DNA of 64,000 nucleotides. It comes from Paragorgia papillata. Its lineage: Eukaryota > Cnidaria > Anthozoa > Scleralcyonacea > Coralliidae. The DNA is taken from NCBI GenBank assembly GCA_035771165.1, contig JAWNZC010000297.1, forward strand, positions 353,501 through 417,500, in the 5' to 3' direction. Positions 15,591 through 54,671 of this stretch are shown in pieces. A model generated the notes under the pieces. The model saw nothing but the letters and a program-made list of their open reading frames with translations. It was not told the DNA's origin and made no database searches. Made by a program: the position numbers and the translations under genes. The first letter of the stretch is position 1, and every line of letters starts with the position of its first letter.

Positions 15591-15729
15591 ATTTGTTTAT
15601 TTTTATTTATTCATTTATTTATTTATTCATTCATTCATTCATTCATTCATTCATTCATTCATTCATTCATTCATTCATTCATTCATTCATTCATTCATTC
15701 ATTCATTCATTCATTCATTCATTCATTCT
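15591..15729. repeat. (ATTC)n microsatellite, left flank of the 22-kb insertion
   Basis: About 30 ATTC units preceded by ATTT variants, just inside KDZ intron 3. The same repeat resumes at 37852 after the 15-mer-bounded insertion, which suggests that the insertion split a single microsatellite. Confidence 0.95.
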
Positions 15730-15743
15730 TAGATGAACCGGTG

Positions 15744-16318
15744 GTCCTTTTTGTAACATCAGTTTCAAAAGCACCCTTATTCAAAATTTGATAAATATTT
15801 CCGATACTTTGGTAAAGCACTTGGAAAATAGTACTTTTTAACATATCTGCTCCATGGCAAAACCGAATAAATTCTTTATGACAATTTTTAAGAAATACAA
15901 CGCCAATGTTACAAAAAGGAACCAGGCCGCGTAATCGCTCAATTTTTAACCTTTTTTCCCCGAAATACGCAAGGGTGAACGGTAGCAAGCATCCTTATCG
16001 ATGCTATTATACCCTTGTCCATCCTACACATTTGGTTAAAAAATTACAAGGAGAAATAATCTCGTGGTAATTTTGTTATACCTTTACAAGACCTGCCACT
16101 CTAAAATAAAAAGAGCACAAATTGTTACAGCGAGTAACAATTGACTCAAATGACTTTATATTTAGCGAGCATTTGTATCAGGCACTAGTAATGCTTCGTA
16201 GAAAGTTTTAGCATTTTACGGTAAATACTTTTATTTTTATTTGCGTTTTTATCGCAAAACGTCGTGTTACAAAAAGGAACCGGTTCCTTTTTGTAACATA
16301 AATGTTCCTTTTTGTAAC
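15744..16318. repeat. Left terminal 15-mer cluster of copy 1
   Basis: Copies of GTTACAAAAAGGAAC or its complement lie at 15744-15757 (one base short), 15908-15922, 16266-16297 (a 32-bp perfect palindrome of two copies) and 16304-16318. The palindrome, the next copy and the following GAAAAAAAATAATTT are matched in inverted form at 63975-63905. Confidence 0.85.
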
Positions 16319-16339
16319 ATGAAAAAAAATAATTTCTTA

Positions 16340-16790
16340 AACGACGAATTGTAAAGGTTTTATTTAGGTCTCATATCTATTTAGTTGTTTCTGACAATGT
16401 AGAAATACCCTGACTGCAGCTGTATCTTGCTTATTTTGTCATCAGAAGAAGTTTTTGATTTATTGGCTTTTTACCACATTAGGTAAGTTAACTTACAGTT
16501 TTCCATTTAAAATCAAAACAATATTATAATACGCACACATGTTTTCATTAAAAAATTTTTTGAAAATAATTAAGATATTTTCCCATTTTTCTCAAATCCT
16601 ATTTTTTAGTTAATTTTTTTATTTTGGTCAGAAGGACCAAGTGTCCGAGTGAAAGGACTGGGAACGAGTGAATTTTCCCATTAAATTACACGTGTTAGTA
16701 ATGATGGCGTGAATCCTCTAAGCTACTTTCGTATTTAATAGGACGTTCTTTCTTCTTTTGTAAGGTAAGCCAAGTAATTTGAATAACTAT
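16340..16790 (+). promoter_or_regulatory. Leader block with conserved splice donor (copy 1 left end)
   Basis: A block repeated with divergence at 33680-34085 and, inverted, at 63790-63560. Shared landmarks are TTGGCTTTTTACCACATTAG|GTAAGTT (donor at 16483), GTGTCCGAGTGAAAG near 16640 (shared with 33.9 kb) and AAAGGACTGGGAACGAGT near 16655. Strong conservation of a donor directly inside the terminus suggests a promoter plus untranslated first exon for the recombinase gene. That role is inference. Confidence 0.5.
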
Positions 16791-16835
16791 GAATAATTCA
16801 TAATTTGTATTTATAACTCATTCTTCCCCAGAGGT

Positions 16836-16876
16836 GAATAAAATCGTCTGGCGTTAGCCAGAATAAAATACTAAAG
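16836..16876 (-). repeat. Dispersed two-hairpin core
   Basis: The sequence AAAATCGTCTGGCGTTAGCC followed by AGAATAAAATACTAAAG. Other copies lie at 14331, 34440, 48432 (weak), 62721 and 62830. It contains the stem CTGGC-TAAC-GCCAG. Confidence 0.7.
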
Positions 16877-17499
16877 ACCAATTCGGACAGCAAAGAGTTG
16901 GAGAAATAGTTTATAATGCAATGTTTTTACGAATTGATTTTTTTGGTATTTATAAGAATTAAAGAAAGAAGTTGGAATCTTTAAATGAAATAATATGACA
17001 AGAAAACTACATGTGCATACGTCGTCATCATAGACAAAATATGTGTATTCATTTGATAAATTCTCTAGTCTTTGACAATAATGAAGATTCGATTTAGGTA
17101 GTGACTTGCTTCCATTATTTATTTCTAATACAATCTTGTCAAATTGTCCGCTATTGAGTTTGATAAAATATGGTACTAAACACAATTTAAAACATTTTTG
17201 ATATGAACACTTTTATATCATTTACTAGTTGAATCAAATAGAGTAAACTGCTGCAGTCTTTATATTTCATGACTAATATGGAAGTATCTCGATATATAAG
17301 CAACCAAAATGGCAACCAATAAGTTATTTTAAATATAGTAAGGTTTGATCTTTTGCCAAAACAGGGACACTCATCGATTAGCATCAGTGCGATGCTGACA
17401 TTGATGGCTGGACTTTCGGCAGTCAGGGCAGTTTTTGTATATTATCAGAGTAATCAGACAGCATGTGGAGTTGTGGACCTGTCAGTTGACTTTTGTAAG
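16877..17499. other. Non-coding sequence inside copy 1
   Basis: AT-rich. The short open frames here look like chance and carry no domain. The stretch 16850-16920 resembles 48434-48495 (AGACC-ATTCG-ACAG and GTTTATAAT landmarks). Confidence 0.4.
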
Positions 17500-17572
17500 G
17501 GTGGGCCTAGACTTGAACCAGCACACTGTCCATGCACGGCTCTGCCGCTAACCACTGGACTACACAGGAAGC
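17500..17572 (-). repeat. tRNA-derived SINE head
   Basis: On the minus strand a box A (TAGTCCAGTGG, 17551-17562) and a box B (GGTTCAAGTCT, 17509-17519) are correctly spaced within a tRNA-like 70-mer. It is probably the head of a SINE whose body extends leftward. I cannot assign an amino-acid identity. Confidence 0.6.
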
Positions 17573-18060
17573 TTCGGAAATGCTTGGATAAAATTGGTAT
17601 TTATGGCAGTATTGTGGTTATTGTGCTAATAACATTTCAATCAATTTTCCTCATTCCTGATTGGCTAATCACATCAATATTAAATTTAAATTCTTTTACA
17701 AGGGGTATTTAAGAAAAATACCACATGTGGACCATTTTTTTTTAAATATCATGGCAACATTTGATATGAATAAAGTGTGACAGTAAACAAGTCAGTTTGT
17801 TGTGAGTTGTGCTTCATTCACTGTATCTGAACACTCAAGCAGTTAGCCATGAAGAAAGTTAAGTAAACTTTACTTAAAACAATTTTAAAAATTAAATGAA
17901 GACATTACTCAAATATGCTGTTATCAATGTCACACAGTGGAAGAACTCGATGTCTTTTTTATATACTGTATATGCTGAGTTTGATGTTAATTTTCCTGTT
18001 CGTCAAAATTTTCCATTGTTTTATACAGTATTATTTTGGGAAAAGGTTAAATTGGTGGAA

Positions 18061-18250
18061 ATGTTATTAGAAGGAAATACAGTAACACTTGTTCTCGAAG
18101 AATTAATGAAAAATCACACTTGTGTTTGGCAAAATATTTGTAATACCACTGTTGCTTCACACTCGTGATATTATGAATATTTTGCCAAACACGTGTGTGA
18201 TTTTCCATCAATTCTTCTTGAACAGTGTTGTTTCCTATACTAATATTATA
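18061..18250. repeat. Foldback MITE
   Basis: Two imperfect inverted arms share AAAATCACACTTGTGTTTGG on the left and its near-complement on the right around 18181-18210. Flanking sequence at 17631-17700 recurs at 32520-32590, so the family is repeated in the window. Confidence 0.6.
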
Positions 18251-18381
18251 GTTGCCAGATGAATAACCAAATCCAGTAGGGATCCGTGACTGGACAAATA
18301 ACAACTTCGTAAACTTATCCTGATAATTTTTACTTCTGTGATGCAAAACAGGACTCAGAGTAATTGACTATTCACTTCAGT

Positions 18382-18688
18382 TGTCCCTTAGACAGCTTTA
18401 GACTGTATTTTGACTGCCTTACTTAGCATGCCTTTAGGGTACCTTAGCCCACCTTAGACTGCCTTAGCATGTCTTAGACTGTCTTAGACTACCTTTGATT
18501 AGACTACCTAGCTATAGGACTAAAGGTAATCTAAAGCATACTATAAGGCTGTCTAAGGCATGCTAAGGCAGTTAATTATGGCATGTGAAATATATGCTAA
18601 GGCAGGCTTAGGCAAGGTACAGTAGTCTAAGGACATCTGAGGCATGCTAAGGCAGTCAAAATACAGTATAAAGCTGCCTAAGGGTGAC
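18382..18688. repeat. Foldback of CTTAGACTGCCTTAGCATG units
   Basis: A 307-bp inverted repeat. The left arm starts GTCCCTTAGACAGCTTTA and the right arm ends TAAAGCTGCCTAAGGGTGAC. Internally both arms are built from short CCTTAGACTG/GCATG units, so a minisatellite has been turned into a hairpin. Confidence 0.75.
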
Positions 18689-18977
18689 CTACTGTAAGAC
18701 CTGTAGTGCAAAGGGGCCTGAGGAGGTATCAGAATGTTGAATAAATTAGTTGTTTATTTTGGTTGCTCATATATTGAGAAAGGGATTGCAGCTTGCACAC
18801 ACAATTGGGTTGGGTGGGGAATAGGGTGTATAATTTAACCATTGTTGAGGGCATTCCTGAGGTGTCATTTTTATTATGCAGAAAACTATTTAAATTTTGG
18901 AGACCCAGCCCACCCAAAACAAGATTAATGAACCTTCTCTTACAAGTACTGTATATTCAGTACAGTAGTTAGATGTA

Positions 18978-19564
18978 CAATCAAACCTCTATTAACGAAC
19001 ACCCCCACTTAACTTAAGCAGACATGCTTAGCTGTGGTGTAACTACTTAAAGTGGTTCTCCTAAAGATGTTATGGTACTGTAGTTAGTAATCGTGCAAAG
19101 TTTCATTTTAAAATTCATTGAAGAAAAGGTGATATTTTACGTGTGAACTTTGTATTTTAGAGCACCACCATTAAAGTGGCCAAGCTTGAGAAGAATGAGA
19201 TGAGGAAGCTGATGATGGTCATAGACTAAATAACAACAATGACCCTTTTGTTGACAACAACAATGATCTTTTGTTTTTATTGAGTCTATGATATCAAAGT
19301 TCTCCTCAACTCATTCTTCTCAAACACGGCCAATTTGATGGCAGCACTCCAAACTTACAAACTTTGCACGTACTGTAAAATACAACTCTGTTTTTGAGAA
19401 TCTTGAAATGAAACTTTGCACAATTACCAACTATCATAATATCTTTAAGATTATGCAGAAACACTACCAAAGATATTTTCATAAGACAACCACTTTAAGC
19501 TTAGATGTCTCTTAAAAGGACACCTATAATGTTTCAATGGTGTCTGCTAAATAGGGGTTGACTG
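18978..19564. mobile_element. pogo-like foldback MITE
   Basis: A 587-bp element with TA on each side (18976-18977, 19565-19566). Its ends are CAATCAAACCTCTATTAACG and CCCCTATTTAGC...-type complement GGGGTTGACTG. Long imperfect arms run through most of the element. The CAGT(C/A)AAACC end and TA target fit Tc1/mariner-pogo MITEs. No transposase is present. Confidence 0.7.
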
Positions 19565-19715
19565 TACGAGACAAAATTATGTACAGTAGGTTCTGTACCA
19601 TTGACATGGTTTATAGTACATGACTGTAGAGCATTTTTCTAGTTTACTTCCTTTTTAGAGTTAACTTATTTATATTACTTCCTTTTTGTTAGGTACTGTA
19701 TGTACAGTACATAAC

Positions 19716-22364
19716 ATGGAGGAGGACAAAGTACCTGGACCTACATGTAAGAAAAATCCAGAAGCTAAGCAGGACAAAGGAGCTACATGTACACCTAAGA
19801 AAAATCCAAAGGCTAAGCAGGACAAAGTACCTGGACCTAAAAAAGACCCAAGGGCTAAGCATGCATGTGCATTTCCTTCATGCACATCGGTGGTTGTGCA
19901 TCTTCCTCGTCACATGAGGTTATCTCATAAGTGGGCTAAAGAAGATGCAAATGGAGTTGTAAATTCATTTAGTTTACGGAAAGTATGAAAGTGGAATAGA
20001 GCAAAGCCTGCAAAGCGTGCAAAGCGGATAAGAAATTTCAAAAGTGTTACATGCCCAGTTCCAAATTGTTTTTCCGTAGTCAAAAGGATTCACAATGATC
20101 TTACAGATGTTCACAAGCTCAAACATGAAAGTAAACAATATAAGAGGTACTTAGCTTCTGCTCAATTACATGAAGCTACATGTATTACTATATCTTCAGA
20201 ATCTTCCATGTCTGATGACACGTCAACAGAAAGCCTTGATGAAACTATCTTGGAGAGGAAAATCAAGCAAGTGTCAAAGAGGTCCCAGCAATATCCTGGT
20301 ATATTTGAGAAAGTTTACACCAGAAGATGACAACCAACAAGCTAATGGTCAACCTGCAGAGAAAAGAAAACAGGTATCAAAACATCCAAGTATATTTAAA
20401 AAGGAATCTGATGAGGAACACAGCGAGGATGATTCAGAATACCAAGAAGGAGATTTATTATTCAAAGACACTCCAGCAATGTCATTATCATCACTACCAA
20501 CCAAAGCATATGCTAACAAACAAAGTCTTGAATGCAGCAATGATGGATCAGACAGTGCAGAAAGTCCTTCTGTAGGAACTTCTGGAGAGGATTTTGATTT
20601 TGACACTGATGACAAACACCATGACTCACAAGATAATCTTCCACTACAACTATCAAACAGTGCAATTTTTAAGAGTTTTATTGAGTGGTTGCAAGGTCCT
20701 GATGGTGGTCGGAAAGATCCAAAGTGTGCACAGCAGTGTTCTCGACAGGTTCAGCTGGTTGCTGCAGCCATTCATCCGGAACATCCAAGCATTCTTGACC
20801 TGTTTGACCGGACAACATTAAGGGATGCCTGGTTGGTGGAATTTGAAAAGCAGAAGCAGCCAGGAACCGTAAAATCGTACCTTGGTTCCCTTGCTCTATT
20901 CTATTTGTTTCTAAAATGCGAACAAGTGGATGAAGTGGTTGGTGTTTCATCCCAACAACTTGGAATTCTGGCTGACCAAATGAAGCAGTGGAGCAAGTCA
21001 TGCAAGAATCTTGTCAAAGACAGATTCTGGGAGAAACGAATTGAGGACCTATCCAAACTCAAAACTCCTGAACACGTGCAAGAATTTGATTGCTCCGGAG
21101 TGGCAAGAGATGCAGTAAGGTTACTTGGCGAGTACCAGAATGTCTCACCTGAGAAAGTGCCTACCCATCAGGAATATACAAATGTTAGAGACTACCTTCT
21201 AACCCTGTTGTGTATTAATAATGGAAGTCGGTCAGGCTCACTTGCAAATATGACCTAAGAAGACTATAGGACGGCTCACAGACATGAAGAGGATTTTGTA
21301 GTAAAAGTAAAGAAACATAAAACATTTTCTACTCATGGACCAGCTCATATGATGTCTTCAACCATTTATACGTGGGTTGGCATATTCATCACGCAGTTTC
21401 GAAACAAGCTTGGAGATGTTGACAAGGCTGACAAGGCTACTGTGTTCATCACTTGGAATCTTCGACGAATGGACTCTTCACACATTGGCAAACAGATTGG
21501 TTCCTATTGGGGTAAGGTGTTCGGCAAAGAAGCCTCCGGGGGTGGTGCTACTGCTTTTCGCAAAGCAGCTGTTTCTGCAGTGCAAGATAAGGATGACCAA
21601 GGGAGAGAAAATTTAGCCAGCTTGATGGATCATCACAAAGGGACTGCTGATGGTTATTATGTGCTGCAAAATAAGTCAAAGCGAGCAGCAATTGCATCAC
21701 GTAGTCTATCAAACATTATGCATTCCAAAGAGCCTACATGTAAAACACAGAGTACATGTACCATTACAAGACCACCAGCAGCTGTCAAACAATGGACGGA
21801 TGAACAAGTGCAGATTATAAAGTCTCTCTTTGCCAATGAAATCAAAGAAAAAAATATTACATTGAAAAGAGTACAAGAGCTCACCAAAGATCATCCAGTT
21901 CTAAGTAAATTCGAAGCCAGGAGAATTTCTGACAAGATCAGGTATATAATTTGCAGTGTTCCTGATGCGACACCAGTGCCACCACTTCCAGAAGAAGTTG
22001 AAACATCGGAAGATCGGTTAAAGCGTTTTGGCATTCTGCAAGATGATGTTGTCACCCTTCTACTACCAGAAAGAGAAAGCAGAACGCTAAATCTACATCT
22101 AGTGAGTATACACCAAGCCTATTTTCACCTACTACATGTAAGTCATCAACCTCCAATGCAACTGGAAAATTGTTTGACAAAAAAGAAACAGAAGTTTTCA
22201 GGATTGTCTTCCATGAACTTATTCAAGGCCAACAATCAATAAAGAGAGAAGTAGTGATGAAAAAGATGGACCATCCCAATTTGAAGCATCTCACAAAGCA
22301 ATTTAGTCCATTGCAACTGTGTGACAAAGTTCGGACTGAAAGAAAGATTTACCAGCGTCAGTAA
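19716..22364 (+). pseudogene. Two-zinc-finger tyrosine-recombinase-like gene, copy 1
   Basis: A Lys-rich start (ATG 19716) is followed by two C2H2-like fingers: CAFPSCTSVVVHLPRHMRLSH and CPVPNCFSVVKRIHNDLTDVH. An acidic linker (20380-20640) follows, then a core-binding-like helical domain (CSRQVQLV...KQPGTVKSYLGSL). The catalytic-like part has INNGSRSGSLANM (candidate Arg I), VKVKKHKTF (candidate Lys), ATAFRKAAVSAV (candidate box II Arg) and LMDHHKGTADGYYVL (His and nucleophile Tyr). The C-terminus has two Myb/SANT-like helices (WTDEQVQIIKSLF and a second near 22180-22360). Lesions are a TGA at 19986, a frameshift near 20320, a TAA at 21256 and a frameshift near 22090. It resembles Crypton-type recombinases, but I assign only tyrosine-recombinase-like. 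Confidence 0.62.
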
Positions 22365-22774
22365 GGGCAATATTATGAACACGTATGTACTTTATAAACA
22401 TTAATTATAGTGGTAATTATCAGTTCATATAAAAGATCTGACTGACTTTGACTTACCGTACATACATTTCGACCTATAAATATTTTGGGAACAAACAAAA
22501 TCAGTATAATTATCTATTTTGTGTGAATGCCAATGATTGTATTTTGATTTACTTTTCGCTGACATTTGCATTGTTTATTGATCAACCAAAACACAGTACA
22601 AGTGTGTGCCTGCATACAGGCTAGCCATGCAGTAGCATTTTTGTTTTGATTATTAGAGAAGACCATCTGAACAGATGGAGTCAAGTACTGTAAGATGCAG
22701 CAGACGACATTGATATAGGATTTTTTGACATTTATAATTGTTTTTGTTTGGTAAGAGTTTAGTTTTAGTGTAAG
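22365..22774. other. Non-coding gap between recombinase gene and Kolobok
   Basis: I see nothing recognisable. It ends at the TTAA target (22775-22778) of the Kolobok insertion. Confidence 0.5.
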
Positions 22775-22778
22775 TTAA

Positions 22779-22810
22779 AGGATGAGTGTCACAGTGATGC
22801 ATTGCGCGCT
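22779..22810. repeat. Kolobok left terminal inverted repeat
   Basis: 32 bp identical, in inverted orientation, to 32167-32198. It is preceded by TTAA. Confidence 0.95.
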
Positions 22811-23700
22811 CATTTTCTCGTCGGCAGCCATTTTTTGGGACGCCTAATTCAATGTGTATTTCAATCCATCGATATCATGTGAATCCTCTTTTTAAATTTA
22901 TCAGTTTTCATTTTTCTTGGAAGCAGACATACCCTAGTGAATAGCGTTATTTGTATTTCTTATAAATTTGTTATTCCCTGGAATTTTTTGTGACACATGG
23001 AAGGGTCAAGTAGGTCGACCCCACTGAAGCGTGGAAGACCAAACTATGGCATTGAAACTACGCGAATCAGGTTGAGATTGGACGTATTTGATAATTGGCT
23101 GGCTAGTAAAGACTTGTGGATTTAGTGGAAAAAAACACATAGCGAATTCGCCCAGTATTTACTTCGTGTCAATGATTCACGAACACAAGGTCAACAACAA
23201 CCTTCGTCAGGTGACCCAGGTACAGGTTAGTACTCAAGAGTTTTGTCACTTTTTAGTTTTTCATCAATTTTAAAATTTATTTTCACTGGATTTTATTTGT
23301 TTATTAGTGTTCAACTATCCCGTCCATTCTACTCCTATTCAACAGCCCAAACGACGATCCTTGTTTCATGTAGCAGCTTCACCGATTCTATCTGGGAATA
23401 ACTCGTAAGTAAACCTGTGTGCACAAGTAGATGAAATATAATACTATATAATAATTCAGTGGATCATCAATTGCACCTGATGCAGTTTCATTTGCATTTT
23501 ATTTGCAGAACTCTTGATGTTACAGGTGTTTCTTCGTGTCCTGGAAATGTTAGTCTCATTGAAAGCTTGTCAACAACCATAAACCCGGATTTTGGAATGT
23601 ATACTGGTGACCTATCATCCGATACAGATTCCGAGAGTTCAGATTTTGATGACACAAGGTAAATAAGTTTTTTTACAGCAACTTACAAGACGACTCTCTG

Positions 23701-23719
23701 CCCCCCCCCCCCCCCCCCC
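23701..23719. repeat. (C)19 homopolymer followed by (CT)n
   Basis: A homopolymer tract in Kolobok intron 3. Its length may be affected by sequencing error. Confidence 0.85.
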
Positions 23720-23825
23720 TCACTATTCTTGGATCTCTCTCTCTCTCCCCTCATATAATTGAAAAACCTTTAACATAAGTGATAGTGAATTGAATCTAGA
23801 TAATTATAACTGTAAGTACCTACAC

Positions 23826-24115
23826 CAGTGGTGTAGCTAGGGTTTCAGGGGCCCCGGTTCAAAAGTAAGGGGGTGTAGCCCACCGAGACAAAGTTGTGAG
23901 TCTGAAGTTTTAGGGGGGTTTAGGTGCATGCCCCCAGAAAAATTTTAAAATTTGTGTCATGGAAATTGCGTTCTGACAGACACATTCTTATATGGGTTAA
24001 TTAACTTAATTGTTATGAAGCATGATTGAAGTATATGCTGAATTTTTGAACCTTTGGGGGCCCTGGTTCAATGAACCACCTGAACTCCCTATTGCTATGC
24101 CACTGGTGTACATCG
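23826..24115. mobile_element. hAT-like MITE in a Kolobok intron
   Basis: A 290-bp element with ends CAGTGGTGTAGCTAGGG and CCCTATTGCTATGCCACTG. CAGTGG(C/T)GTAGC ends are typical of hAT MITEs. I could not find a clean 8-bp target duplication. Confidence 0.7.
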
Positions 24116-24304
24116 AGATAGTGTGACCCTTGTGATAAGGCCAACTCTAAATTGGTGAACCCCTTTCTTGGTCACTTAGCTATCTTCAGTTTACAGACGA
24201 TTTGTTGGCATCATTCTCATTTACATGCTTATGTAAACAAAAAGATAGCCGTGCTGCCACAATAACACTAACATTACTAAACTTTTCAATTGACACTAAG
24301 ATCC

Positions 24305-24432
24305 GGGGTGGATTCAGGGAGAGAGGCCATCTCAAACTGAAAAATAGTGGGGCAAAAACTGCTTTTCAGGAGTGGTAAGTAGCTTTCACCTAGTTTTGGC
24401 CCCTCCCAAACATTTAGTCTGAATCCACCCCT
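24305..24432. repeat. Short MITE in the same intron
   Basis: Inverted ends GGGGTGGATTCAG (24305) and CTGAATCCACCCC (to 24432) enclose about 100 bp of non-coding sequence. Confidence 0.7.
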
Positions 24433-24881
24433 GTGTGAGATCAGTGAAATATGATTAGTCTATTGATTTTGTCTCTTGAGTTTTCTAGAGCCTCTAAAAT
24501 AAGTAACTGATTTGTATTGATAAATTCACATGAATGAATTATTTTTTTGTATATGTTTTACTTTATTATCTTTTTTAAATAGGCAACTATAACCATGTAT
24601 ATTGTTTTTATATTGTATTTGTTCTTGCACAAACAGTTCAAATTCAAGTGACTGGTCAGAGACCAGTGAAGAGACCAGTGAAGATTGGAGTGGTAGCAAT
24701 GAAGATACTGATGAAGATAACTTGTAAGTTACCTATTGAAGTAAAACTTGTAAATGTTGCAGAGTGTAAGGAACAAACTTTCCATATATCAAATCCAATT
24801 TTACGCTAGTCTAGGGTGAATTTGGTAAATTATTTTACATGTATTGATCAGCTTTAAAAGCTACTGTCTACATGTATAGGT

Positions 24882-25047
24882 AATCATATATGATAGCGAG
24901 TACAATTAAAGATTTATACTAGGAGAGTGATATTTGAAAATTTTGCCAAAAGTGCATGAGCTCTTAGGCAAGTGCAATTTGGTGTAATTTTCAAATATCA
25001 TGAGTAGTGTAAATCCCTTAATTGTATGAGCAAAATCATATGATTAC
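24882..25047. repeat. Palindromic MITE
   Basis: Imperfect inverted arms run from GTAATCATATATGAT at the left to ATCATATGATTAC at the right, with internal TATTTGAAAATTTTG and AATTTTCAAATATCA complementing each other. Confidence 0.7.
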
Positions 25048-25477
25048 TAATTTATTATATACATGACAAAATTACAACACGTACACCTCATACCCACTCA
25101 CACCTTTAAAAACATCTTGTTTCATTACTTGACAAGAAACATTTTCACTCTGGGTGTTCTCTGTATTCATTTCAAAATATTTACATGGAATTTTTAGTTC
25201 ATAGTGTACCACAGGTTGTTGGAAATATGAAAACTTTCCATTGCAGAATTTGCCACCATTTTGAATTTTGTTGTCAACATCGTTCCCAGGGCCTTCTCTA
25301 TTTTTATTAATTGGACTGCAGTACAAATCAGAATGTAGTAATTTTGTCATGCATATAATAAACAAAGTTACTGTACAAAGTACTGTACCCATTTTGTCTG
25401 ACACTTTAGTGCATGTGTTTAATCTGGTCATAAAGCTTGCAAATAGAAACGATTAATTCTAATATTAACACTTTCAG

Positions 25478-26615: not shown

Positions 26616-29600
26616 ATGTGATAATGGTACTGTAGTATGTGCACTATGAAATTACACTAATTTTAAATATACTTATTACAGTTGTAAATATATGAATATC
26701 TTCATTTTGTTTCTTGTTGAACAATCAATCATTATTTATTTTCAGTGTACAGTGTACTTCATTTACACACCTGTCCGGCAGTTATTTACCTTGTTTGGAT
26801 ACTGCTTATCGAAATACCTACTATCCAAATCTGGGATACTAAATTTCAAATAGGGATACTAGATTTTAAGACCCTAGTATCCACTTGGATACTGGTAAAA
26901 AATTCAAATCTTGAGCCCTGTGCTTCTGAACTCAGTCTGGTTGAAACTTCTGATTCATCAGATGATAATGATGGGAAAATAACTGAGCCTATGAACACTA
27001 GTGAGCCTTCACGAAAATATGGACCAGAAACATTGGAAGAAAGGAATAACAGATTAAGAGAGAAGCTCAAAACCTCTTTTGATTCATTAAATGGAACTGA
27101 CAAATATTATTCAACATACTCTAGCCACTTTGAAAAAGATCGTGTGATTGTTGATGTTGACATAATACTAGATATGTTCAACAATGACTGTTTGTACCCA
27201 CCTTGTTTACAGCAGAGCAGAGTGACAAATTGGAAAATGGATGGTGGAGTATTGAGAGTGTCATGGGAGTGCATAGGAGGGCATTCAGGATATTGGGTGT
27301 CATCCAAGGTACTTTGCCAAAAGTCTGGACATGATATTTATGTAAACACTGTGTTGCTAGCAGCAGGAATTGAAGTCACAGGGAACCATTTTGATAAATT
27401 GTCATCCTTCAGCAAGTTTTTGAAGCTTGGATTTCTTTCACGGTCAACATTTAATCGCTTACAGAGAAACTGTATTATACCAGAGATTAAGTGTTTCTGG
27501 GAAGAAATGAAGGCAGAAATATGGAGAATTTTCAGTGATGAAACAGTTATATTGTGTGGGGATGGCAGAAACGACTCACCGGGCCATACTGCAAAGTTCT
27601 GCATTTATGCACTAATGGAACAATTGCTGGATGTAATTGTTGACATCGAGATGGTTGACAAACGAGAAACGAATGGGGTATCAACGAATATGGAAGTATT
27701 TGGCCTTAGAAGGTTGCTAAAAAGACTTGTCGGGAAAATTGTTGTGTCAGAGATGTTACAGATGCATCTGCATCTGGGATACCTTTGGTTAGAAAAATTA
27801 AAGGTACATGCGGACTGTTCATAGAACTGAATAATTTTTGTATTTTGCAAATTGTCATATGTACTGTACTGTAATGTACTGTATACTTTAAAAACCTGTA
27901 TTTTTATTTCAGACTCGTGTTGAGAATCTGAGTGTCCTCAACTGGAATTTACATTATTAACCCAGTGCTTAATTTACCATAATTATATACCTCTTTTACT
28001 GGTAAATCCACTCACCTGGTTAACACTAGGGGGTTTTACCAGTAATTGTCAATTAGAGACTGTTGTTATCTGTATACTGTTAGTATTTATAATAAATGTA
28101 CTGGTGGATAATATTTATTTATCTTTGGCAGTTGCACTCAAATCCTCAGGATTTATTGTCAAATTTGCAGAACATGTGTTATAACCTATTAATTAATGTG
28201 CACAAGTTTTTAAGTGATGACAATTTAGTTGTTACATAAATACTCCAGTTGAGTTTAATCTTTCAAATTTCTTCAATTATTAGATAAATACCCAGTCTAT
28301 TTTGCTGATCTTTTTCATGCTTTGGACATTTGGCATAAGTCAGTCAAAATAACAAAGAAGCTTGCCCAGGTATTATTCTAATCTTCATATTGGATTCCTG
28401 ATTGGGGCAGTCAAATGTTTTATATACCATATTATATTAGTCTGTAAAATCACACATACAGTATCTAGGTATTCTCTCATTCCTTGTGTTATAGCTGTAT
28501 ATGACTTTTTCTGATTTTATTTCATTTCATTTCAGGCTGCAAAAGTGAGGGGTTGCAAGGTCATCAATGAGTGGTCAGAGCCCATCCGTAACCACTTTTG
28601 GTATATTGCACAAAACAGCAAAGGTGACCATGAAAAACTAAAGGTACAGTATGATTATCCAGTAGTGATTTGTGTTCATTATATGCCCTGTATGTGTCTC
28701 TGTTATATTGTGTTAATTGTTTTTGAATTGTTTAAAGTTTTATTATTTTTTTTAAAATTTTTATTATTTTTTATGTAGGACAGCTGGTTTGGGGTGTTAC
28801 ACCATATGGTTGGTGAACAAGAATGGACAGATGGGGAATGTGATCATGGCCCTTTGGTTGCAACCGAAACAGGAAAGACCATATTGCAAAATAATTCCAA
28901 AGCCCTAGAAGCTATTCGCAAAGTGATTCTCGATACACGGTTTGTGCGCAGTCTGCATCACTACACTACTTTCAGGTATACTTATCTAGTATTTCTAATT
29001 GTTCTTGTCTGTATTGTTGTTAATGTGTTTATGCAGGGGAAAGTGCAGTTTGAAATACATGTAAACTGCTTACTTGAAATGATATAAGATTTGCATATAT
29101 CACTTTCTAGATTCTCAAACCTAACTGTACTTAGTACTAATGCATGCTAACTTACTTCAACAGGCACACAAGCAAATTAGAAAATTTTAACTCAATGTTA
29201 TTGAAGTATGCTCCAAAAAGAGTTGGATTTCAGTGAGTAAAATCATGCATCTAATGATTGGCTTGTACTTCTTATCCCATCATTAATTCCAAATTTTGTT
29301 TATAAAGGAATGAGTCATTTATGGTGAGGACTTTATTGGCAGCTATCGACCAGAACTGTCATGCATTTAGAAAGCCAGCACTTAGTGAAGATGGCAAGCT
29401 AAAGTACAACAAGTTGTACAGCAAGAGGTCCAAGAATTGGAGGGTCCAGGTTGTCAAGGACGATAAGACATATCCCTTCTGGCCAGTTCTTGCTTCTCGG
29501 ATATGTCAGAACAGGGTGCAAGATGAAGAAAGTATTGCCCGAAGAGTTGTCATTCCTGCAGACCACCCCAAAAACATTGCCCCATCAATTGCTTTGAAAC

Positions 29601-29728
29601 CAATACCCAAAACATCGGATCTTGTTGAGAAATCATTATCCAGATTTGCCAAAGTTGAGCCACCTATTGAAGAAGCAAACATCACTGGAATTGATTCTTT
29701 TACAGCTGAAGTCATGGAATGTGATTAA

Positions 29729-30844
29729 CCATAATGTAGTATTAAATTTATTGTTATTACTGTACAAAAAAAAGTTAAATATCAAAGTGAAAGATGTTAC
29801 ATCTACAATATTTACAAGATACGTGTATGCTGCAAAAACAACTTTTAACAACTACTGCAACAAGCATCTATTCTAGGGATTTTGTATTTCTCCAAAATAC
29901 TTTAGTATTCATGTGTCCACTTTTTGCCTTGCATAAGAATCACTGTTGCTCTATTAGAGTTTAAAAAATCTCGGCAGTTACCATGTTTTTGCTTATATCC
30001 AAAACACTGCCTATGCATGCAGTACTATACTTTTTTACACTCGTTGGATACAATACCCTCTAACCAGCTTGTGTTCTAGTTAAAAACAAATTTGGTGCTT
30101 AAGTAGTTCCATGTTCTAGTATGACATTACAGTAACCCAAAAGGCATCTTGACTTGTGATTGTTACATGTTTTACAGTGTAGTATAATTTTATAGTATCC
30201 GAAAAGGCATCTTGACTTGTGATTGTATGTATTAGATATTGTATCTTCTCCATTTATAAAATTAATGCTTTTGTTCATGTAAATGCTCAAAGGAAATACA
30301 GTATTTAAGGTCAGTAGTTATGGATTTTCTTCTCCACCATGGAGAAGACAATCCTTAAATACTGTATTTCCTTTATTTAGCCCACCCCAATAACACCCCC
30401 CCTGTTCAGAACAACCATAAAAAAATAAGCACCCAGCCTCTATTAGGCCCTCACCCCCATGGGCATTGTAAAAAAATAAGCCCCCATGGGGCTAAATAGA
30501 GGAAATACTGTATGCATTTTGAGCTTCAATCTTCAGATCTCATGGCAACATTTACAAATAAAGACAAAACATATAGTAACAAGTCGAAATTTTCCCTGTG
30601 GTACCCTAATAGTAGTTAGATTTTCAGTTAGAACAAATTGGAACAACTTTAGATCCAGAGGCCTTTTTTATTTGGAGCATTAATTAATGTCTAGTAGAGC
30701 AACAGTGGTTCACAAAACAACAAAAGGAATTTCTTTTGATTTTTTCTATTTAATGCTAAAGTATTTTTTACGTATTTTAAAATTTGTTAGCATAATTAAC
30801 ACACAACTGTCTTATGTTCAAAAGAAAAATTAATGAAAGAGCAT
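29729..30844. other. Spacer between the two convergent Kolobok genes
   Basis: No coding sequence. A GGCATCTTGACTTGTGATTG block occurs twice (about 30143, 30207). A hairpin lies at 30291-30372 and a MITE at 30359-30512. Both genes would need 3' ends here; no clear polyadenylation signal stands out. Confidence 0.5.
30359..30512. repeat. MITE with TACTGTATTTCC ends
   Basis: The left end TACTGTATTTCCTTTATTTA is mirrored by TAAATAGAGGAAATACTGTA at the right. Inside are CCCC-rich complementary stretches. Confidence 0.7.
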
Positions 30845-32101
30845 TTAAGCTCTTCTGAATCCCATGTAGTTTCCATCTTCAGCAGGGTACATATGTCTAA
30901 TAGCTAAAACTACACAGGAAGGACACACTCTCCTGTTTCCTCTGCCTAATTTTTTGTAACGCCACAAAATATATTGGCGGTAAGCAGCTTTGCGAAAACT
31001 GTTTGTGGAGTAATCTGGTTCTTCCACTCGAAAATCACATTTACACCTGATTGACATGACAAGTACATCCCTATCAGTGCAGACATTTTGGAAAGTCACA
31101 AATGAAGTGACACATCTGATCTTGCCACAACATTTATTCTCCTCCTCATCTGGCATCGGTCGACACACACCACACGTACACCATGCAGGTTTCCCTGTAG
31201 TAGGAGGTATAGAAGGTGGTATAGGTCCGCCAAACTGTACAATGTTTTTTGCATAATCTAGGCTACCTTTACCATTTGATAAGATTTCCAATAAAATTTT
31301 ATTTTTCTGCTGCTCATTTAGACCTCCCACAAATTCCTGGAAACCAAATACAATCGTTATAAAGGCCATGTGATACAATAGATAGTGTTTTTGTAATATG
31401 CCAAAATAGATGCTTCATAAGATAACTGACGAACACTACTACGAAACTTACACACTGGGTGTCATTGATCATTCATACAAATTATTTTCAATCAATCAAT
31501 CAATCAATCATTTATTTACCATATTAAATATTACAAGCGAGATAGAATTTAGATAAAAAAAATAGTACAAGCAAATTGTCTGACTGGCAGATTTTATCCA
31601 CCGAGTCAGAACGCTAGGCTTACCGTAATTTCTTCTTTAGCTTTATCTACAGCAATCTGATGGCGTTCGAATGCGTTCAGTGCTCGTTGATGGCCTTTTA
31701 TTCTTACACGTTGCCTTCTTTGTACCACACGTACACTCAGCAACACATGTCAAGCTCTCGTCGCGACAAGGACAACCACGCTTTTTTCTTCCGCTGCCCC
31801 TGCTACAAGTATTTTTGCAACTACAAAACTAAAAGATAGAAGCACGCGATTAATCATTTGATCTGTTTCGTGTCTTTTATAGGAGGAAATATTCAATAGG
31901 TACATGTATCATCAGTATTTCAATAGGAATGCTTACTTGCGTTCGGTCTGGTTGTCGCCTGGTTGAAGGTTCCCCTTGATCAAGCTGCTCTGCGTTTTGC
32001 TCTTGGGTTGGTGACTCACAACAAACAGGCGATCCGTAATAATTGGGATTGTCTTCAGTGTCATAATGCTCCGACGCCAAGTCAGAATCAGTGTCCGACA
32101 T
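30845..32101 (-). pseudogene. Cys-rich protein with P2X7-type ballast domain, in Kolobok
   Basis: Three exons on the minus strand: 32101-31937 (start MSDTDSDLASEHYDTEDN), 31828-31624 and about 31337-30845. Exon 1 ends CAA|GTAAGC in phase 0. Exon 2 is Cys-rich (CSCKNTC, GRKKRGCPCR, CVAECTCGTKKATC) but shifts frame by one base just after that. Exon 3 resumes in phase and carries WCTCGVCRPMP, NKCCGKIRCVTS, SFRKAAYRQYILWRYKKLG and CPSCVVLAIRHMYP. These match the zinc-binding intracellular ballast domain of vertebrate P2X7 receptors, which is also known outside P2X channels. There are no channel segments here. The gene starts 97 bp inside the right Kolobok repeat, so it travels with the transposon. 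With the exon-2 shift it may be inactive, or have an unrecognised splice. Its function is unknown; DNA or RNA binding is a guess. Confidence 0.78.
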
Positions 32102-32166
32102 TTTGAAATCACTGAAGAGGGATATGGAGCCGGTCGCAGGCTAAGTTCCCGTATGAAAACAACATA

Positions 32167-32198
32167 AGCGCGCAATGCATCACTGTGACACTCATCCT
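32167..32198. repeat. Kolobok right terminal inverted repeat
   Basis: Perfect inverted match to 22779-22810, followed by TTAA at 32199-32202. Confidence 0.95.
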
Positions 32199-32202
32199 TT
32201 AA

Positions 32203-33679
32203 GAGTTTTAACATGTACTGTTTAGCACAACAATTACTTGTAAGAGTGAGATGAATTGACCTATGTGCATTTGTTAATTATCATAATTATATTCACAGGG
32301 AATTATAGTTAGTATCATTAATACAAGGCCAAATCATAAAACATATACATGTACAGTATGGCATGTATTGATGTGGTAACTTGACTTTTGCCATGGCATG
32401 ACAATATACTGTATTGTATATTTTTAGCCCTTGCTGTGTGTGGGCTCAAATGTTACTTCTCAGGCCACATCATGAACAACACACATGCCTGTCAAATGTC
32501 ATGCTATTCTCTTAAATTAGTAACATTTCAATAAATTTTTCTCATTCTTGATTGGCTAATAACAGCAGTATCAAACTCATTTTTTTAAATAAATTAATAA
32601 ATACCTTAAAATCACCCCAGGTTAAAATCAGCAGCCGTGTACTTTTGTAGTACTTTTTCAACATTATCAAGAATATTTAAAATTGACTGAAATGTTATTA
32701 AAAGGAGATAACACTTCTTCATGTGTGCTTTGTACAGTGTACAGTACAGGTACATGTTATATTGCAAATAGTCGGTTTTTATACTGTACTTTTCATTTTA
32801 TTAAGTAAATACATGCTACTGCACAAATAAAAACTATTGAAAGTGGCCCTATATTTTAAGTAGAGACCATTCTTTAATTTTATCTATTCCGTAGTATTTC
32901 TGTAAGCCAAGTGCTAAAACATTTTTGTACAGAACGAGATTGTGTAACTAAAGGCTGTTCATAAGCCTTTGACCTTGTGTTATGGTTTGAATATTACAAT
33001 ATTGATGGAGTTGTATTTTGTCGTTTTGTGTTATTGTTTTCATGATTTTGAATTAATATTATTATTGAAATTTACTAAATTTTATTTCTGACATTTCTAT
33101 AATATTAGTTGGGATGGCAATATTTTTGTGGAGGTATTGCATGACCACTGACAGATGTCATGTTGATTTCGAGTGTTGGTTAGTTGGAAATGTATATTTT
33201 CAAAAGCTGTCATGTAATATCCTATTATATTAAAGTATAGCCATGATTATATGTATATTATCATTCTGTCGAGCTTGCTCTGACTGTTCTAACCCTTTCT
33301 TTAATTAATCCATTGAATTCCATCATGGCAACCCCTGTCTTTTTTGATTTGTCATAAAGGTGCATGCAAGATAATCAGGTGATGTTGCCAGATACCATGG
33401 TAAACGTCACTAGCCAGTTTTTTTCTGCTATGTTAGCAGTGGTCTGGAAATTGCAGTATACACTTTAAGTTTATAATACTGTATTACACTACAGTAAATT
33501 TAATTAATAATATTACACTAATTAAATTAATATTACACTACAGTACTACACTATACCCTATACTTTATACAGCTATACACTATAGCATGCATTATTTTTA
33601 GTGTTGGTGACACATACCACCTGGGTATGGTATGATCCTGAATCCTGCTCGATTATATCAATGAAAAAAAAAATTCTCA
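32203..33679. other. Non-coding interior of copy 1
   Basis: AT-rich with no domain-bearing open frame. 32520-32590 repeats the CATTTCAAT(A/C)AATTTT block of 17631. The ATATTACACTA motif recurs within 33485-33560. Confidence 0.4.
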
Positions 33680-34085
33680 GTATTAAACAGCAAGTTGCAA
33701 AGGTTTTATTCAGGTCTCAGATGTATTTAGTTGTTTCTGACAATGTAGAAATACCCTGACCACAGCTGTATCTTGCTTATTTTGTTGTCAGAAGAAGTTT
33801 TTGATTTATTGGCTTTTTACCGCATTAGGTAAGTTAACTTACAATTTTCACATTTAATTAAAATCAAAACTATTATAATACGCACACAATTTTTTATTAA
33901 AATTCCAAGTGTCCGAGTGAAAGAACTGGGACGAGTCATTGTCCGCCATGTTTTTGTGTAACATTTTAGAAGACACGTTTGTGCTTTAGAAAACCAAGGG
34001 AATTTCCTTTTATTTCTGAGGATTACTTTAATATTTGGACGTTCTGATTGCTTTTTATTATCTTCCAGTCAAGGTAAGCTAAATA
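33680..34085 (+). repeat. Second copy of the leader block
   Basis: A direct, diverged repeat of 16340-16790. It keeps GTTTCTGACAATGTAGAAAT and TTGGCTTTTTACCGCATTAG|GTAAGTT (donor at 33829), GTGTCCGAGTGAAAG and CAAGGTAAGC. No 15-mer cluster precedes it, so it is probably an internal duplication or a relic of another copy. Confidence 0.75.
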
Positions 34086-34350
34086 TTAATGAATAATTAG
34101 TTAATAATTATGAATAACTCGTGAATGAAATGAAGATTAGGTGAAAATTGTTGGCTCTATTATTAACTACTGTAGACTGCATCTGACAGTCTTTTAATAC
34201 TGAAAACATCTTATTTGAGGCAATTTACTATTATATTTCTACAATTTGATCATTATGTACAGAAGAAGAGAATTGAAGAGTTATGGTTTAATGGTCAATG
34301 CAATTAAATTATCAGTTTAATACATGTAGGAATCAGTCAGAAGTTTTGAT

Positions 34351-34534
34351 AATTATACTACTGTAAAAGCAGAACATGTTAATGATTTAATTTAAATTAA
34401 ATCATTAACCCTTTGAGGCCTGGACCTCTCCCTGTGCTGAATAAAATCGTCTGGCATTAGCCAGAATAAAATACTAAAGACTCGTCTTCAGGCTTCAAAG
34501 GGTTAACATGTTCTGCTTCTACAGTAGTATAATT
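34351..34534. repeat. MITE inside a MITE
   Basis: The outer arms are AATTATACTACTGTAAAAGC and GCTTCTACAGTAGTATAATT. An inner inverted pair, TTAACCCTTTGAGGCCTG and its complement near 34487-34506, encloses a copy of the two-hairpin core (34440-34481). Confidence 0.8.
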
Positions 34535-34558
34535 TCAACAAAGTAGTACATACAGTTG

Positions 34559-34783
34559 TTTGCACCTAAGTGGAAACACTGCCCATCAAAACATGTTCTA
34601 GTTCAATGTCAAACATAAAAGTTTTCCTTGGATATGTTTCCCTTCGATACGTATATGTTTCTGCTCTTAGCCAATCACGTCTCGCCAACCCCACGGTGTC
34701 AATTTCAAAACAGTTCAGTTTTGAACATGTTTGAATTAAACATAAACATGTTTTGATGGGTGGTGTTTCCACTTAGGTGCAAA
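34559..34783. repeat. 225-bp foldback MITE
   Basis: Arms TTTGCACCTAAGTGGAAACA at the left and TGTTTCCACTTAGGTGCAAA at the right, continuing inward through CATCAAAACATG/CATGTTTTGATG. Confidence 0.9.
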
Positions 34784-35596
34784 TGACAGTATTAGATATT
34801 ATTGCTTAAACAAATATCTGTATTACAATTTTAATGTTCATAAATAAATTATGTGTAAATTCAAACACCTCTTCTGTAATGGATTATGGTTATACAATGT
34901 TGAAGAAACAGTGATGTATTTAAGAAAAAGTACTTGAGTGGTTTGAATTGACACATATTGTTACATCATGGTTATACTGTACATGTAGTTCTGACACTGG
35001 ATCTTTAAGTTCAATGGGTATAGATCTGACATTGACATAACGCATGCACAATATGGTTTAATTTGAATTTTACTTGTCAGATCTTTTCAACAATCAGTAC
35101 AAGGTCTGACATTATCACTCAGTTAATCTTAATAGATCATCAAGACATCAAAGCCTAAACACTTACGAAGGCTGACACAGTGCTGTAATTATAGAATGGG
35201 AACATTAAATGTGGTTACTGAACTGATGAACTTGTGGTCATGATTGAATTTAAGTCACTCAATCTGTAGTTTTCGTTTTCTGTTTTGAATCAGACTGGAT
35301 GTGTATGGAAGCATGTTTAGGGTTTAGGTGTAGGTACTGTATAGGTTCTGTCAAATATCGAAACTATCTTCTAAACTTTAATCATTTGAGAGATTGAAAG
35401 ACTGAGGATGTTGACAACGATGTGTCTTTCAGACAAGAAACATCAGTATGAATAAATTTTCCACACCAGTTGAGTTTTCTTACTGACCTTTTGGTTAAAA
35501 CTCAAAAGACTAAACAATGTCAAAATAAATGGTATTGTGCATGCGTTATGTTAATGTTGGATCTATAACCATTAAACCTAAAGATCGAGTGATCCT
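34784..35596. other. Non-coding sequence before the ACTGC array
   Basis: Nothing recognisable beyond short partial repeats such as GTCTGACATT-like copies near 35015 and 35105. Confidence 0.4.
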
Positions 35597-36345
35597 CTGT
35601 ACTGCACTGCACTGCATTGTACTGTACTGCACTACATTGCACTTTACTGTGCTATACTGCACTCCACTGTGCCATACTGTACTGTACTGCACTGTACTGC
35701 ACTGTACTGCACTGTACTGCACTGCACTGTATTGTACTGCACTGTACTGTGCTGTACTGCACTGCACTGTACTGCACTTTACTGTACTGCACTGTGCTCT
35801 ACTGCACTGCACTGTGACTGTACTGCACTGCAACGGCACTGTGCTCTACTGCACTGCACTGTGCTCTACTGCACTGCACTGTGCTCTACTGCACTGCACT
35901 GTGCTCTACTGCACTGCACTGTGCTCTACTGCACTGCACTGTGCTCTACTGTATTGCACTGTACTGCAGTGTGCTCTACTGCACTGCATTGTGCTCTACT
36001 GCACTGCACTGTGCCCTAGTGCACTGCTCTGCACTGTACTGCACTGTGCTCTACTGCACTGCACTGTGCTCTTCTGCACTGCACTGTGCTCTACTGCACT
36101 GCACTGCACTGCACTGCACTGCACTGCACTGCACTGCACTGCACTGCACTGCACTGCACTGCACTGCACTGCACTGCACTGCACTCTACTGTACTGTACT
36201 GCACTGTACTGCAGTGTGCTCTAATGCACTGCACTGTGCTCTACTGCACTGCATTGTGCTCTACTGCACTGCACTGCACTGTACTGCACTGCACTGTGCT
36301 CTACTGTACTGCACTACAGTGTGCTCTACTGCATTGCGGTGCACA
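35597..36345. repeat. (ACTGC)n-derived minisatellite
   Basis: About 750 bp of ACTGC/ACTGT pentamers. Parts are organised as a 20-bp unit, ACTGTGCTCTACTGCACTGC (35838-35950 and 36045-36100); one part is pure ACTGC (36094-36183). Long open frames across it in all six readings are an artefact of period 5. Confidence 0.95.
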
Positions 36346-36536
36346 GTTTTTGAACGCCTAAGCAGGCGTCTTGTTATTGTAAAAGTGCAGTTGATCATTT
36401 AGGGAATATTTAGATATGGTTTATACAGTATTGCATTAAAGTATTTTTCTAATTAAATGTATTTTCTCTTGTTAGGATACTGCGGAGATATCACATGGAG
36501 CAGGACGGTCTTCACTTTCCTTTAAGGGCCTACACT

Positions 36537-36835
36537 TTGGACTTCATTTCTATGCTCTTTACTTCATTTCTACGCTCTTTACTTTACTTTCTACACTCTG
36601 CACTTCATTTCTACGCTCTGTACTTTACTTTCTACGCTCTGTACTTTACTTTCTACGCTCTGCACTTCATTTCTACGCTCTGTACTTCATTTCTACGCTC
36701 TGCGCTTCATTTATACGCTCTTTACTTCATTCATACGCTCTGTACTTTACTTTCTACGCTCTGCACTTCATTTCTACGCTCTGTACTTCATTTCTACGCT
36801 CTGTATTTTACTTTCTGCACTCTTACTCTTCTAAG
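36537..36835. repeat. 20-bp minisatellite TACTTCATTTCTACGCTCTG
   Basis: About 15 units of 20-21 bp, varying between CTTCATTT and TTTACTTT forms. The preceding stretch at 36346-36536 is unique sequence. Confidence 0.95.
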
Positions 36836-37646
36836 AACTACAGTTACGTACTACATGAAATAGTCTAACTCAAAAAGCTTTTTATTCCTGTTTACGTAAT
36901 CAATCATGTATACATGTAGACAATCAGTATGTGTTCTTCTGTTTTTAGCACATATAGAGATTCTTTTCTAGCATATATTCAGTGTTTAATCTAATGTACA
37001 ATGTTAATTGTTGTAATAGACATATATGTATTTGTTCACCTGATGATGAAATATATTGTTATTAAAACCTGTTACTTGTCTTGATTTCTATAATAATCTG
37101 TGCAGGATATATGCCATGACCACTTGGAGATCGATATAATAATCGAACAATGATAATTTCTCTGAGTGATCAAAATAAATCACTAAGGAATATTGTCAAG
37201 ACAGGATAAAAGTCCAGTTTTCAAGTGGTCATGTAATGTTCTGTCATATTAACATGTAAAGATAAACTTATTGCGAGACACACTCGACAAGCTACACACT
37301 GCTTTATGCTACTAAAACTAAATTTTACTATTAATAAAAATTGAGCATTCAAAATTGCTGTTAAAAGTCAGCTGCAAGTGACAAAAATGTATTTGAATCT
37401 TATTGTCTATTAATTTCAGCAATATATCTTAAAAAGTATTATAATAACATATAATATTATATTATTCTATAATATCTCACATTACAATTTATGATAATTA
37501 ATATATCATGATGTGATAAGTTATTTATCCATTTTTGAATAAAATATTTCCTAAACTAATCATATTCTTAACTATGCTGTATTTAAAAGCAAATAAACTT
37601 ACTAAAAAGGCTTAAAATTAACGTAGCCAAAATAGTATAATTGCAT
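36836..37646. other. Non-coding right part of copy 1
   Basis: AT-rich. It holds a foldback with 12-bp perfect arms, CATGACCACTTG (37114) and CAAGTGGTCATG (to 37233). The last 80 bp (AAAAAGGCTTAAAATTAACG and onward) match the interior edge of the other copy's right array, inverted at 48400-48320. Confidence 0.5.
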
Positions 37647-37851
37647 GTTACAAAAAGGACTTACTACATGTTACTAAAGTAACCAATGTTACAAAAAGGA
37701 ACATGCTATGTTACAAAAAGGAACCCATGTTACAAAAAGGAACCATGCTATGTTACAAAAAGGAACCCACGTTACAAAAAGGAACCCGATGTTACAAAAA
37801 GGAACCTCTTATGTTACAAAAAGGAACCCCACCTATGTTACAAAAAGGAAC
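37647..37851. repeat. Right terminal 15-mer array of copy 1
   Basis: Eight perfect GTTACAAAAAGGAAC copies start at 37688, 37710, 37729, 37752, 37771, 37791, 37813 and 37837, plus a shortened one at 37647. All have the same direction, with 4-10-bp variable spacers. (ATTC)n starts at the next base. Confidence 0.95.
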
Positions 37852-37876
37852 ATTCATTCATTCATTCATTCATTTT
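37852..37876. repeat. (ATTC)n, right flank of the 22-kb insertion
   Basis: Five to six ATTC units directly abut the last 15-mer. It is the same motif and strand as the 15591-15729 array. Confidence 0.85.
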
Positions 37877-48109: not shown

Positions 48110-48116
48110 GATTCAT

Positions 48117-48299: not shown

Positions 48300-48319
48300 C
48301 CAGCAGCTAGCGTGTTCCT

Positions 48320-51102: not shown

Positions 51103-51166
51103 AGGTCTATATGCTTTTAAAAATTAATAGTAATGTAAATTTACATTAGTCTTCTGTCTTTCAATA

Positions 51167-54655: not shown

Positions 54656-54671
54656 GTGTAATGCATTCTAA

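Follow-up and report, generated by a model that had tools for sequence, protein, structure and literature searches.

Results

Two related elements in one window

The window, a 64-kb stretch of Paragorgia papillata DNA analysed at its full length, is the terminal part of contig C297 (417,500 bases) of the source assembly, whose contigs are labelled Cn throughout. It holds two related elements, E1 and E2. E1 is the 22-kb interval that an initial annotation of the sequence had proposed as a large mobile element with a recombinase gene; E2, a second element in reversed orientation, had gone unremarked, as had the tetranucleotide microsatellites at both flanks of E1 and at the right flank of E2. 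The ends of both carry clusters of a 15-mer, GTTACAAAAAGGAAC, which, with up to 2 mismatches allowed, matches the window 25 times against 0.36 expected. None of 100 shuffles of the window reached 25 matches (maximum 3), and a chance origin of the clusters was thus ruled out. There are four clusters, which make up the end pairs of E1 and E2. The features of E1 and of the KDZ transposase gene that surrounds it are:

15491..15574, plus: KDZ transposase exon left of E1, matching PF18758 142-164
15605..15728, plus: left flank of E1, (ATTC)n microsatellite in a KDZ intron (target-site flank)
15729..37855, plus: element E1, 22.1 kb, with left terminus TTAGAT at 15729 and the final 15-mer stopping at 37851
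15743..16318, plus: left site cluster of E1, in the order minus, plus, plus-minus-minus, the triple being kept across subfamilies
16316..16588, plus: conserved exon-like block adjoining the left triple, containing the conserved donor-like TTAGGTAAGT
about 19716..22365, plus: zinc-finger tyrosine-recombinase gene of E1, disrupted by frameshifts and stop codons
22775..32202, plus: Kolobok-like nested insert, 9.4 kb, with 42-nt inverted arms and TTAA on both sides
35597..36827, plus: minisatellites of E1, units of 5/40 bp and 20/61 bp
37647..37851, plus: right array of E1, 8 exact direct 15-mers (37688-37851) and one with 2 mismatches at 37647
37852..37876, plus: right flank of E1, (ATTC)n (target-site flank)
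37987..38165, plus: KDZ transposase exon right of E1, frame broken within the exon

The description of E1 as closed by unlike clusters stood: the left one is of mixed orientation (15743 minus, with 1 mismatch; 15908 plus; 16266 plus; 16283 minus; 16304 minus), and the right one contains the 8 exact direct copies. These clusters bound the interval, but the conserved left terminus lies 14 nt outside the first 15-mer, with which the interval had been taken to start. The right terminal arm of E1 has been lost into the ATTC repeat, so that the right edge can be placed only to within a few bases; the sister copy C87 retains this arm. A single recombinase gene is indeed present inside, but in E1 it is broken. 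Subtracting the Kolobok-like insert, whose arms (22775-22816 and 32161-32202) are 95% complementary and both bounded by TTAA, leaves about 12.7 kb, as had been estimated. Within this insert lie open reading frames (ORFs) with a P2RX7_C domain (30848-31414, minus) and with a hAT dimerisation domain (26061-26612), the latter making a further nested hAT possible. The right part of E1 also contains a second copy (87%) of the exon-like left block, devoid of 15-mers (33661-33902 and 34430-34481).

The interruption of the KDZ gene was confirmed as well. The match of 37987-38085 to PF18758 166-197 is contiguous and in phase with that of the left exon, each piece scoring below the gathering cut-off of the profile. 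An allele lacking the insertion, which the initial annotation had envisaged, was sought in the source genome with the KDZ flanks, but the search gave no empty site. Both flanks recur just once, on C381, where they enclose the same insertion (406472-445411); its right end is 98% identical to that of E1 over 3.3 kb and its left end 90% over 1.4 kb, which indicates an allele or duplicate. The insertion on C381 measures about 39 kb compared with 22 kb in the window; large internal length differences therefore arise at one site.

E2 is laid out on the opposite strand:

47718..48105, minus: right flank of E2, (CATC)n on the minus strand (target-site flank)
48106..64000, minus: element E2, left terminus past the contig end
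48117..48299, minus: right array of E2, 8 exact 15-mers and a further inverted copy with an indel near 48161
51356..52886, minus: recombinase gene of E2, two pieces 77% and 84% identical to the intact protein P0007, frameshifted and cut short
53030..62074, minus: minisatellites of E2, units of 10, 20 and 31 bp
63924..63975, minus: left triple of 15-mers of E2

The two elements align at the left-end block (69.5% over 351 nt), at the right array (75%) and, within the recombinase gene, over two stretches (67% and 64%). The 31-bp minisatellite unit of E2 is also present in C12, C82 and C193.

A family of large elements with asymmetric ends

The source assembly (617.9 Mb) contains 341 exact copies of the 15-mer, and a reversed-sequence control gave 0. 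We considered the possibility that the 15-mers were subterminal repeats of KDZ itself; yet the pair of KDZ flanks recurs once only, and this origin was rejected because the 15-mer places seen adjoin a different gene or none. A genome search for the recombinase, using an intact relative as the query, gave 83 matching pieces with 53 of its 197 candidates scored. In fetched genomic DNA we delimited 11 complete elements of 12.5-25.9 kb: E1 (22.1 kb), C12 (22.6), C18 (15.5), C82 (20.7), C87 (22.1), C51 (12.5), C86 (19.1) and C124 (12.8) and, with sizes taken from coordinates, C193 (19.1), C245 (13.0) and C314 (25.9). All have the same relative orientation of their ends, and 10 of the 11 contain a recombinase match, always oriented left to right, which supports the suggested lineage of large, recombinase-bearing animal elements whose arrays are asymmetric. 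Nor do the arrays occur mostly without the gene among the places seen: 14 of 27 named 15-mer places have a recombinase match nearby and 13 have none listed (4 of these being single 15-mers), in a tally drawn from the 100 of 341 15-mer places with known positions and from the 53 of 197 recombinase candidates that were scored. The places lacking a match may represent non-autonomous copies or fragments, or reflect gaps in the list.

The five-site left cluster is common to 10 of the 11 complete elements and the right array to all of them. At the left end, the outermost site of each of the eight elements first examined is a minus site, and 165-168 nt further in there is a plus site, followed 520-590 nt inward by the plus-minus-minus triple in all but C87, whose left block bears an insertion and retains one later 15-mer only; five left sites are likewise present in C193, C245 and C314. 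Between 7 and 10 sites, most of them direct, make up the right end (for C314, 8 within the fetched piece), one inverted copy recurring in C12, C18, C82, C193 and the C51 group. The left tip consists of TTAGAT and 8 nt before the first 15-mer (pattern TTAGAT-N8-GKTMCTTTWTGTAAC), and the right tip of 11 nt past the last one. All 16 left tips recognised have their outermost 15-mer at a distance of 14 nt, a spacing that part of the search presumed. Joining the two tips, as a circle would, yields imperfect inverted arms on either side of a repeat core, with 9 of 10 arm positions complementary in C51, C86 and C124, 8 of 10 in C18 and C87, and 6 of 10 in C12 and C82.

The arrays might instead be promoter or silencer elements, the tips alone being needed for movement. 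The left triple abuts the exon-like block with its GTAAGT donor in E1, C51, C12 and C18 (4 of the 5 aligned copies reach the block) and in E2, and the block of E1 is a putative promoter with a 5' noncoding exon. Yet the right array lies at the opposite end, past the single gene found, and also occurs in C87, in which neither the genome recombinase search nor a check of the element gave a recombinase match. The spacing from 15-mer to tip is moreover constant, at the left tips as stated and at 11 nt in intact right tips. We regard a purely regulatory role as fairly unlikely.

Minisatellites contribute very unequally to the copies; counted with the 15-mer arrays, they make up 18 kb of C87 (17 kb of it of a 20/41-bp type), 13.0 of 22.6 kb in C12, 11.1 of 20.7 kb in C82, 5.0 of 15.5 kb in C18, 5.6 of 19.1 kb in C86, 1.2 kb in E1 and 0.3-0.6 kb in C124 and C51. 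When C51 was aligned at the DNA level with C12, E1 and C18, similarity between subfamilies was confined to the two ends and the recombinase region. C51 and C18, the two copies examined for ORFs, have no stop-to-stop ORF of more than 100 codons besides the recombinase gene, the arrays and the minisatellites, and hence no gene cargo. These results bear on a further alternative, in which a DDE-type or rolling-circle transposon moves the ends and the recombinase is a passenger or resolvase, as proposed for ciliate Tec elements (PMC3212892, cited here and below from excerpts). The short imperfect inverted termini and the 13 places with no listed recombinase match would suit such a model. It is, however, hard to reconcile with the lack of a second convincing gene in C51 or C18 and with the restriction of inter-subfamily similarity to the two ends and the recombinase region; furthermore, no fixed-length target duplication was seen beyond the repeat. 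We consider this alternative highly improbable.

The encoded recombinase

Alignment of the recombinases revealed two C-x4-C-x9-H-x4-H motifs, which we take to be C2H2-type fingers. The core is predicted to be Cre/Xer-like, and the predicted structure has confident helices at 671-722 and 784-846 in the C-terminal region. Fold matches included Tn1549 and lambda Int, and a viral fold library returned 5 at E <=0.001, of which three carry the name integrase. Five of the copies read have full open frames, and the intact genes are under constraint. The recombinase profile found no match among PDB sequences; no DUF3504 match was listed among the recombinase proteins scanned, and none to DUF3435 up to E 1 in 6 proteins.

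Relatives occur in the octocorals Paramuricea and Dendronephthya and, more distantly, in Hydra and Hydractinia. In a tree of 66 recombinases, built by a quick method on a set without Crypton or nimaviral sequences and with E1 on a long branch, several lineages of the source genome were interspersed with other sequences, and a separate branch stood alongside hydrozoan sequences. A search of viral contigs with P0007 gave no relative; a scan of these contigs for the 15-mer gave 106 stretches, of which the 80 listed have a single match each, taken as due to chance.

The source genome also holds two open, distant recombinase copies on C19 (434500-464499), 30-34% identical; no 15-mer (<=2 mismatches) was present in these 30 kb, and ends were not found. 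These relatives may use a different site motif. Five recombinase pseudogenes, 57-60% identical to P0007 (C72:143132, C280:2040759, C288:301548, C439:156061 and C86:885892), have many stops and similar match boundaries, and look like broken copies multiplied via another process.

Insertion into tetranucleotide microsatellites in a fixed register

For the 8 elements with mutually unlike flanks, 16 of 16 ends sit in tetranucleotide microsatellites: (ATTC)n for E1, C87, C51 and C124, (CATC)n for C12, C18 and C82, and (ACTC/ACTG)n for C86. Some tracts are impure, with short strictly periodic runs (C18 left, C86 right, E1 right, C87 left). The same holds for all 8 additional left ends recognised (C193, C245, C314, C437, C381, C383, C53 and C82 at 278 kb) and for 6 of 6 additional right ends (C245, C314, C261, C452, C100 at 540 kb and C170), as well as for the right ends of E2 and C193. 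No left terminus was recognised in the pieces of C52, C67, C100 (3177 kb) and C206; the right end of C437 lies outside the piece fetched, and the left end of E2 past the contig end. By comparison, such tracts occupy 0.28% of the window without the element-side tracts (1.15% with them) and 0.7% of the 30 kb of C19.

The register of insertion is fixed. Left flanks finish in ...A-x-x-C in 15 of 15 cases and right flanks start with C-A in 15 of 15, in tallies that contain the alleles or duplicates C381, C437, C53 and C100 (540 kb), none of which belongs to the 8 elements with unlike flanks, and that leave out the E1 right end (arm lost), C52, C67, C100 (3177 kb) and C206. The left flank of C82 (278 kb), outside the tally, is in the same register. 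CATTC or CATCC is found on both sides; since this word sits inside a microsatellite, a direct repeat of 1, 5 or 9 bp fits equally well.

Some copies are related by their flanks: C381 matches E1, C437 is near C51 (81%), C53 matches C82 (278 kb) and is near C87, and C100 (540 kb) is also near C87. Segmental duplication or allelism explains these pairs. A single insertion, segmentally duplicated, was rejected as the source of all copies because the flanks differ. No flank match of at least 80 nt was listed for C193, C245, C314, C261, C452, C383 and C170, but several of the flank pieces are mostly repeat, so that these copies may not all be independent.

Grouped by their tips, C12-like copies (C12, C82, E2, C193, C245, C314, C261 and C452) are in (CATC)n or (CATC/GATC)n, and E1-like and C51-like copies in (ATTC)n. 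The exception is C86, which shares its tips with C51 and C124 but sits in another type of repeat; its left tip is accompanied by one ATTC unit. In this one case, the unit may be left from a previous insertion into (ATTC)n and have been brought along in the manner of a coupling sequence.

It could be objected that the tracts derive from the element ends or are merely tolerant regions, without any targeting. Insertions into microsatellites do survive, and the right arm of E1 has merged into the repeat. This explanation does not account for a register shared by all 15 left and all 15 right ends tallied, for the occurrence of the same end arms in different repeats (C51 and C86), or for a tract background of only 0.3-0.7%, and we give it hardly any weight.

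Proposed mechanism

We propose that the self-encoded recombinase would act on the short inverted arms of the tips (left TTAGAT..., right ...ATCTGAT or related) and excise the element as a circle, in which the joined arms would flank a core of about 5 bases (CATTC or CATCC). This core would then recombine with an identical word of a tetranucleotide microsatellite. The 15-mers, of which the left end has five pointing both ways and the right end 7 to 10 that are mostly direct, would resemble the arm-type sites of lambda attP, and their binding by the zinc fingers or by the C-terminal helical modules would set synapsis and direction.

E1 and E2 are thus likely to be DNA transposons moved by their own tyrosine recombinase, with a core in the microsatellite and lambda-like arm sites. 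This interpretation draws on the architecture of the copies, the linkage and orientation of the gene, the intact and constrained genes and the fixed-register insertion, all observed, and on a tyrosine-recombinase fold obtained by prediction. The reading given in the initial annotation needs some qualification: the gene of E1 itself is dead, several copies owe much of their size to minisatellites or a nested transposon, the two copies read hold no gene cargo, and the microsatellite target, which says most about the family, had been overlooked. More tentatively, and with slightly less than even confidence, we suggest a distinct class of eukaryotic elements with a lambda-attP-like layout, which would use tetranucleotide microsatellites as attB, comprise subfamilies keyed to (CATC)n or (ATTC)n, and spread minisatellite DNA, also by way of copies devoid of the recombinase, such as the 22-kb C87. 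A literature search at the level of titles and abstracts found no such element, which is not proof of its absence in print.

Few tyrosine-recombinase transposons are known in eukaryotes, and both where they end and what they target are ill defined. The present genome contains many copies, some of them recent and intact, that provide exact ends, a defined target and putative binding sites, and the mechanism is therefore directly testable. A recombinase entering widespread four-letter repeats in one register would illustrate how elements may spare genes, even within an intron, how microsatellites act as landing sites and how minisatellites spread. The enzyme may, in addition, serve genome work as a new animal-adapted recombinase.

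Other contents of the window

Outside E1 and E2, the following were noted:

1048-1488, minus: transposase fragment of the PiggyBac type, matching PF13843
1890-4748, plus; 8163-9210, minus; 45548-45991, minus: ORFs resembling retrotransposons without long terminal repeats, with an endonuclease match at 45548-45991 and the others recognised by reading only
7121-8001, 10124-11241 and 11497-13587, minus: gypsy-like retroelement pieces, of which 11497-12813 matches Pfam aspartyl protease profiles and the others were recognised by reading only

Comparison with known systems

The closest precedent for the choice of target is provided by crustacean nimaviral recombinases that insert into telomere repeats: endogenous nimaviruses with a tyrosine recombinase are inserted into telomeric (TAACC/GGTTA)n or 28S rDNA (PMC10871703, excerpts). 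Like the present family, these are large elements of animal genomes that enter a short tandem repeat and have a recombinase with a C2H2 finger and a SAM-like domain. They differ in their repeat, the targets here being (ATTC)n, (CATC)n and (ACTC/ACTG)n, and the excerpts of PMC10871703 describe no 15-mer arrays. Nimaviruses are, furthermore, viral genomes of many genes; C51 and C18 have one gene and no viral gene set, and the host is cnidarian-like.

Could the family be a divergent Crypton enlarged by minisatellites, and nothing more? It has one gene, for a tyrosine recombinase; C51 and C18 show no other gene-like ORF and so no reverse transcriptase; short direct repeats are possible; and cnidarians are known Crypton hosts (PMC3212892). 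In the CryptonA group, a circular intermediate has been proposed, with 4-6 bp direct repeats and cnidarian hosts (PMC3212892). Animal Cryptons, however, are described in the same excerpts as lacking a C-terminal domain and terminal repeats, whereas the present elements have predicted C-terminal helices and imperfect inverted tips, besides site arrays, a length of 12-26 kb and a microsatellite target. We find this explanation unlikely and, because of these two departures from animal Cryptons, file the family under tyrosine-recombinase DNA transposons generally. The DIRS and Ngaro retrotransposons, which combine a reverse transcriptase with a recombinase, differ from C51 and C18, in which there is no further sizeable ORF.

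Starships of fungi are likewise large and recombinase-driven, but, unlike C51 and C18, they have gene cargo, and the present host is an animal. The captain recombinase of Starships is DUF3435.

Integrases of the lambda and Tn916 type use core sites, separate arm-type sites and coupling bases. The anatomy of the present elements fits such a layout, with putative core sites and putative arm-type arrays in asymmetric arms. No excision-factor gene was seen in the two copies read. The host here is eukaryotic, unlike that of the lambda and Tn916 types, and zinc fingers would replace the usual arm-binding domain, and the ATTC unit at the left end of C86 may echo coupling bases brought from a donor site.

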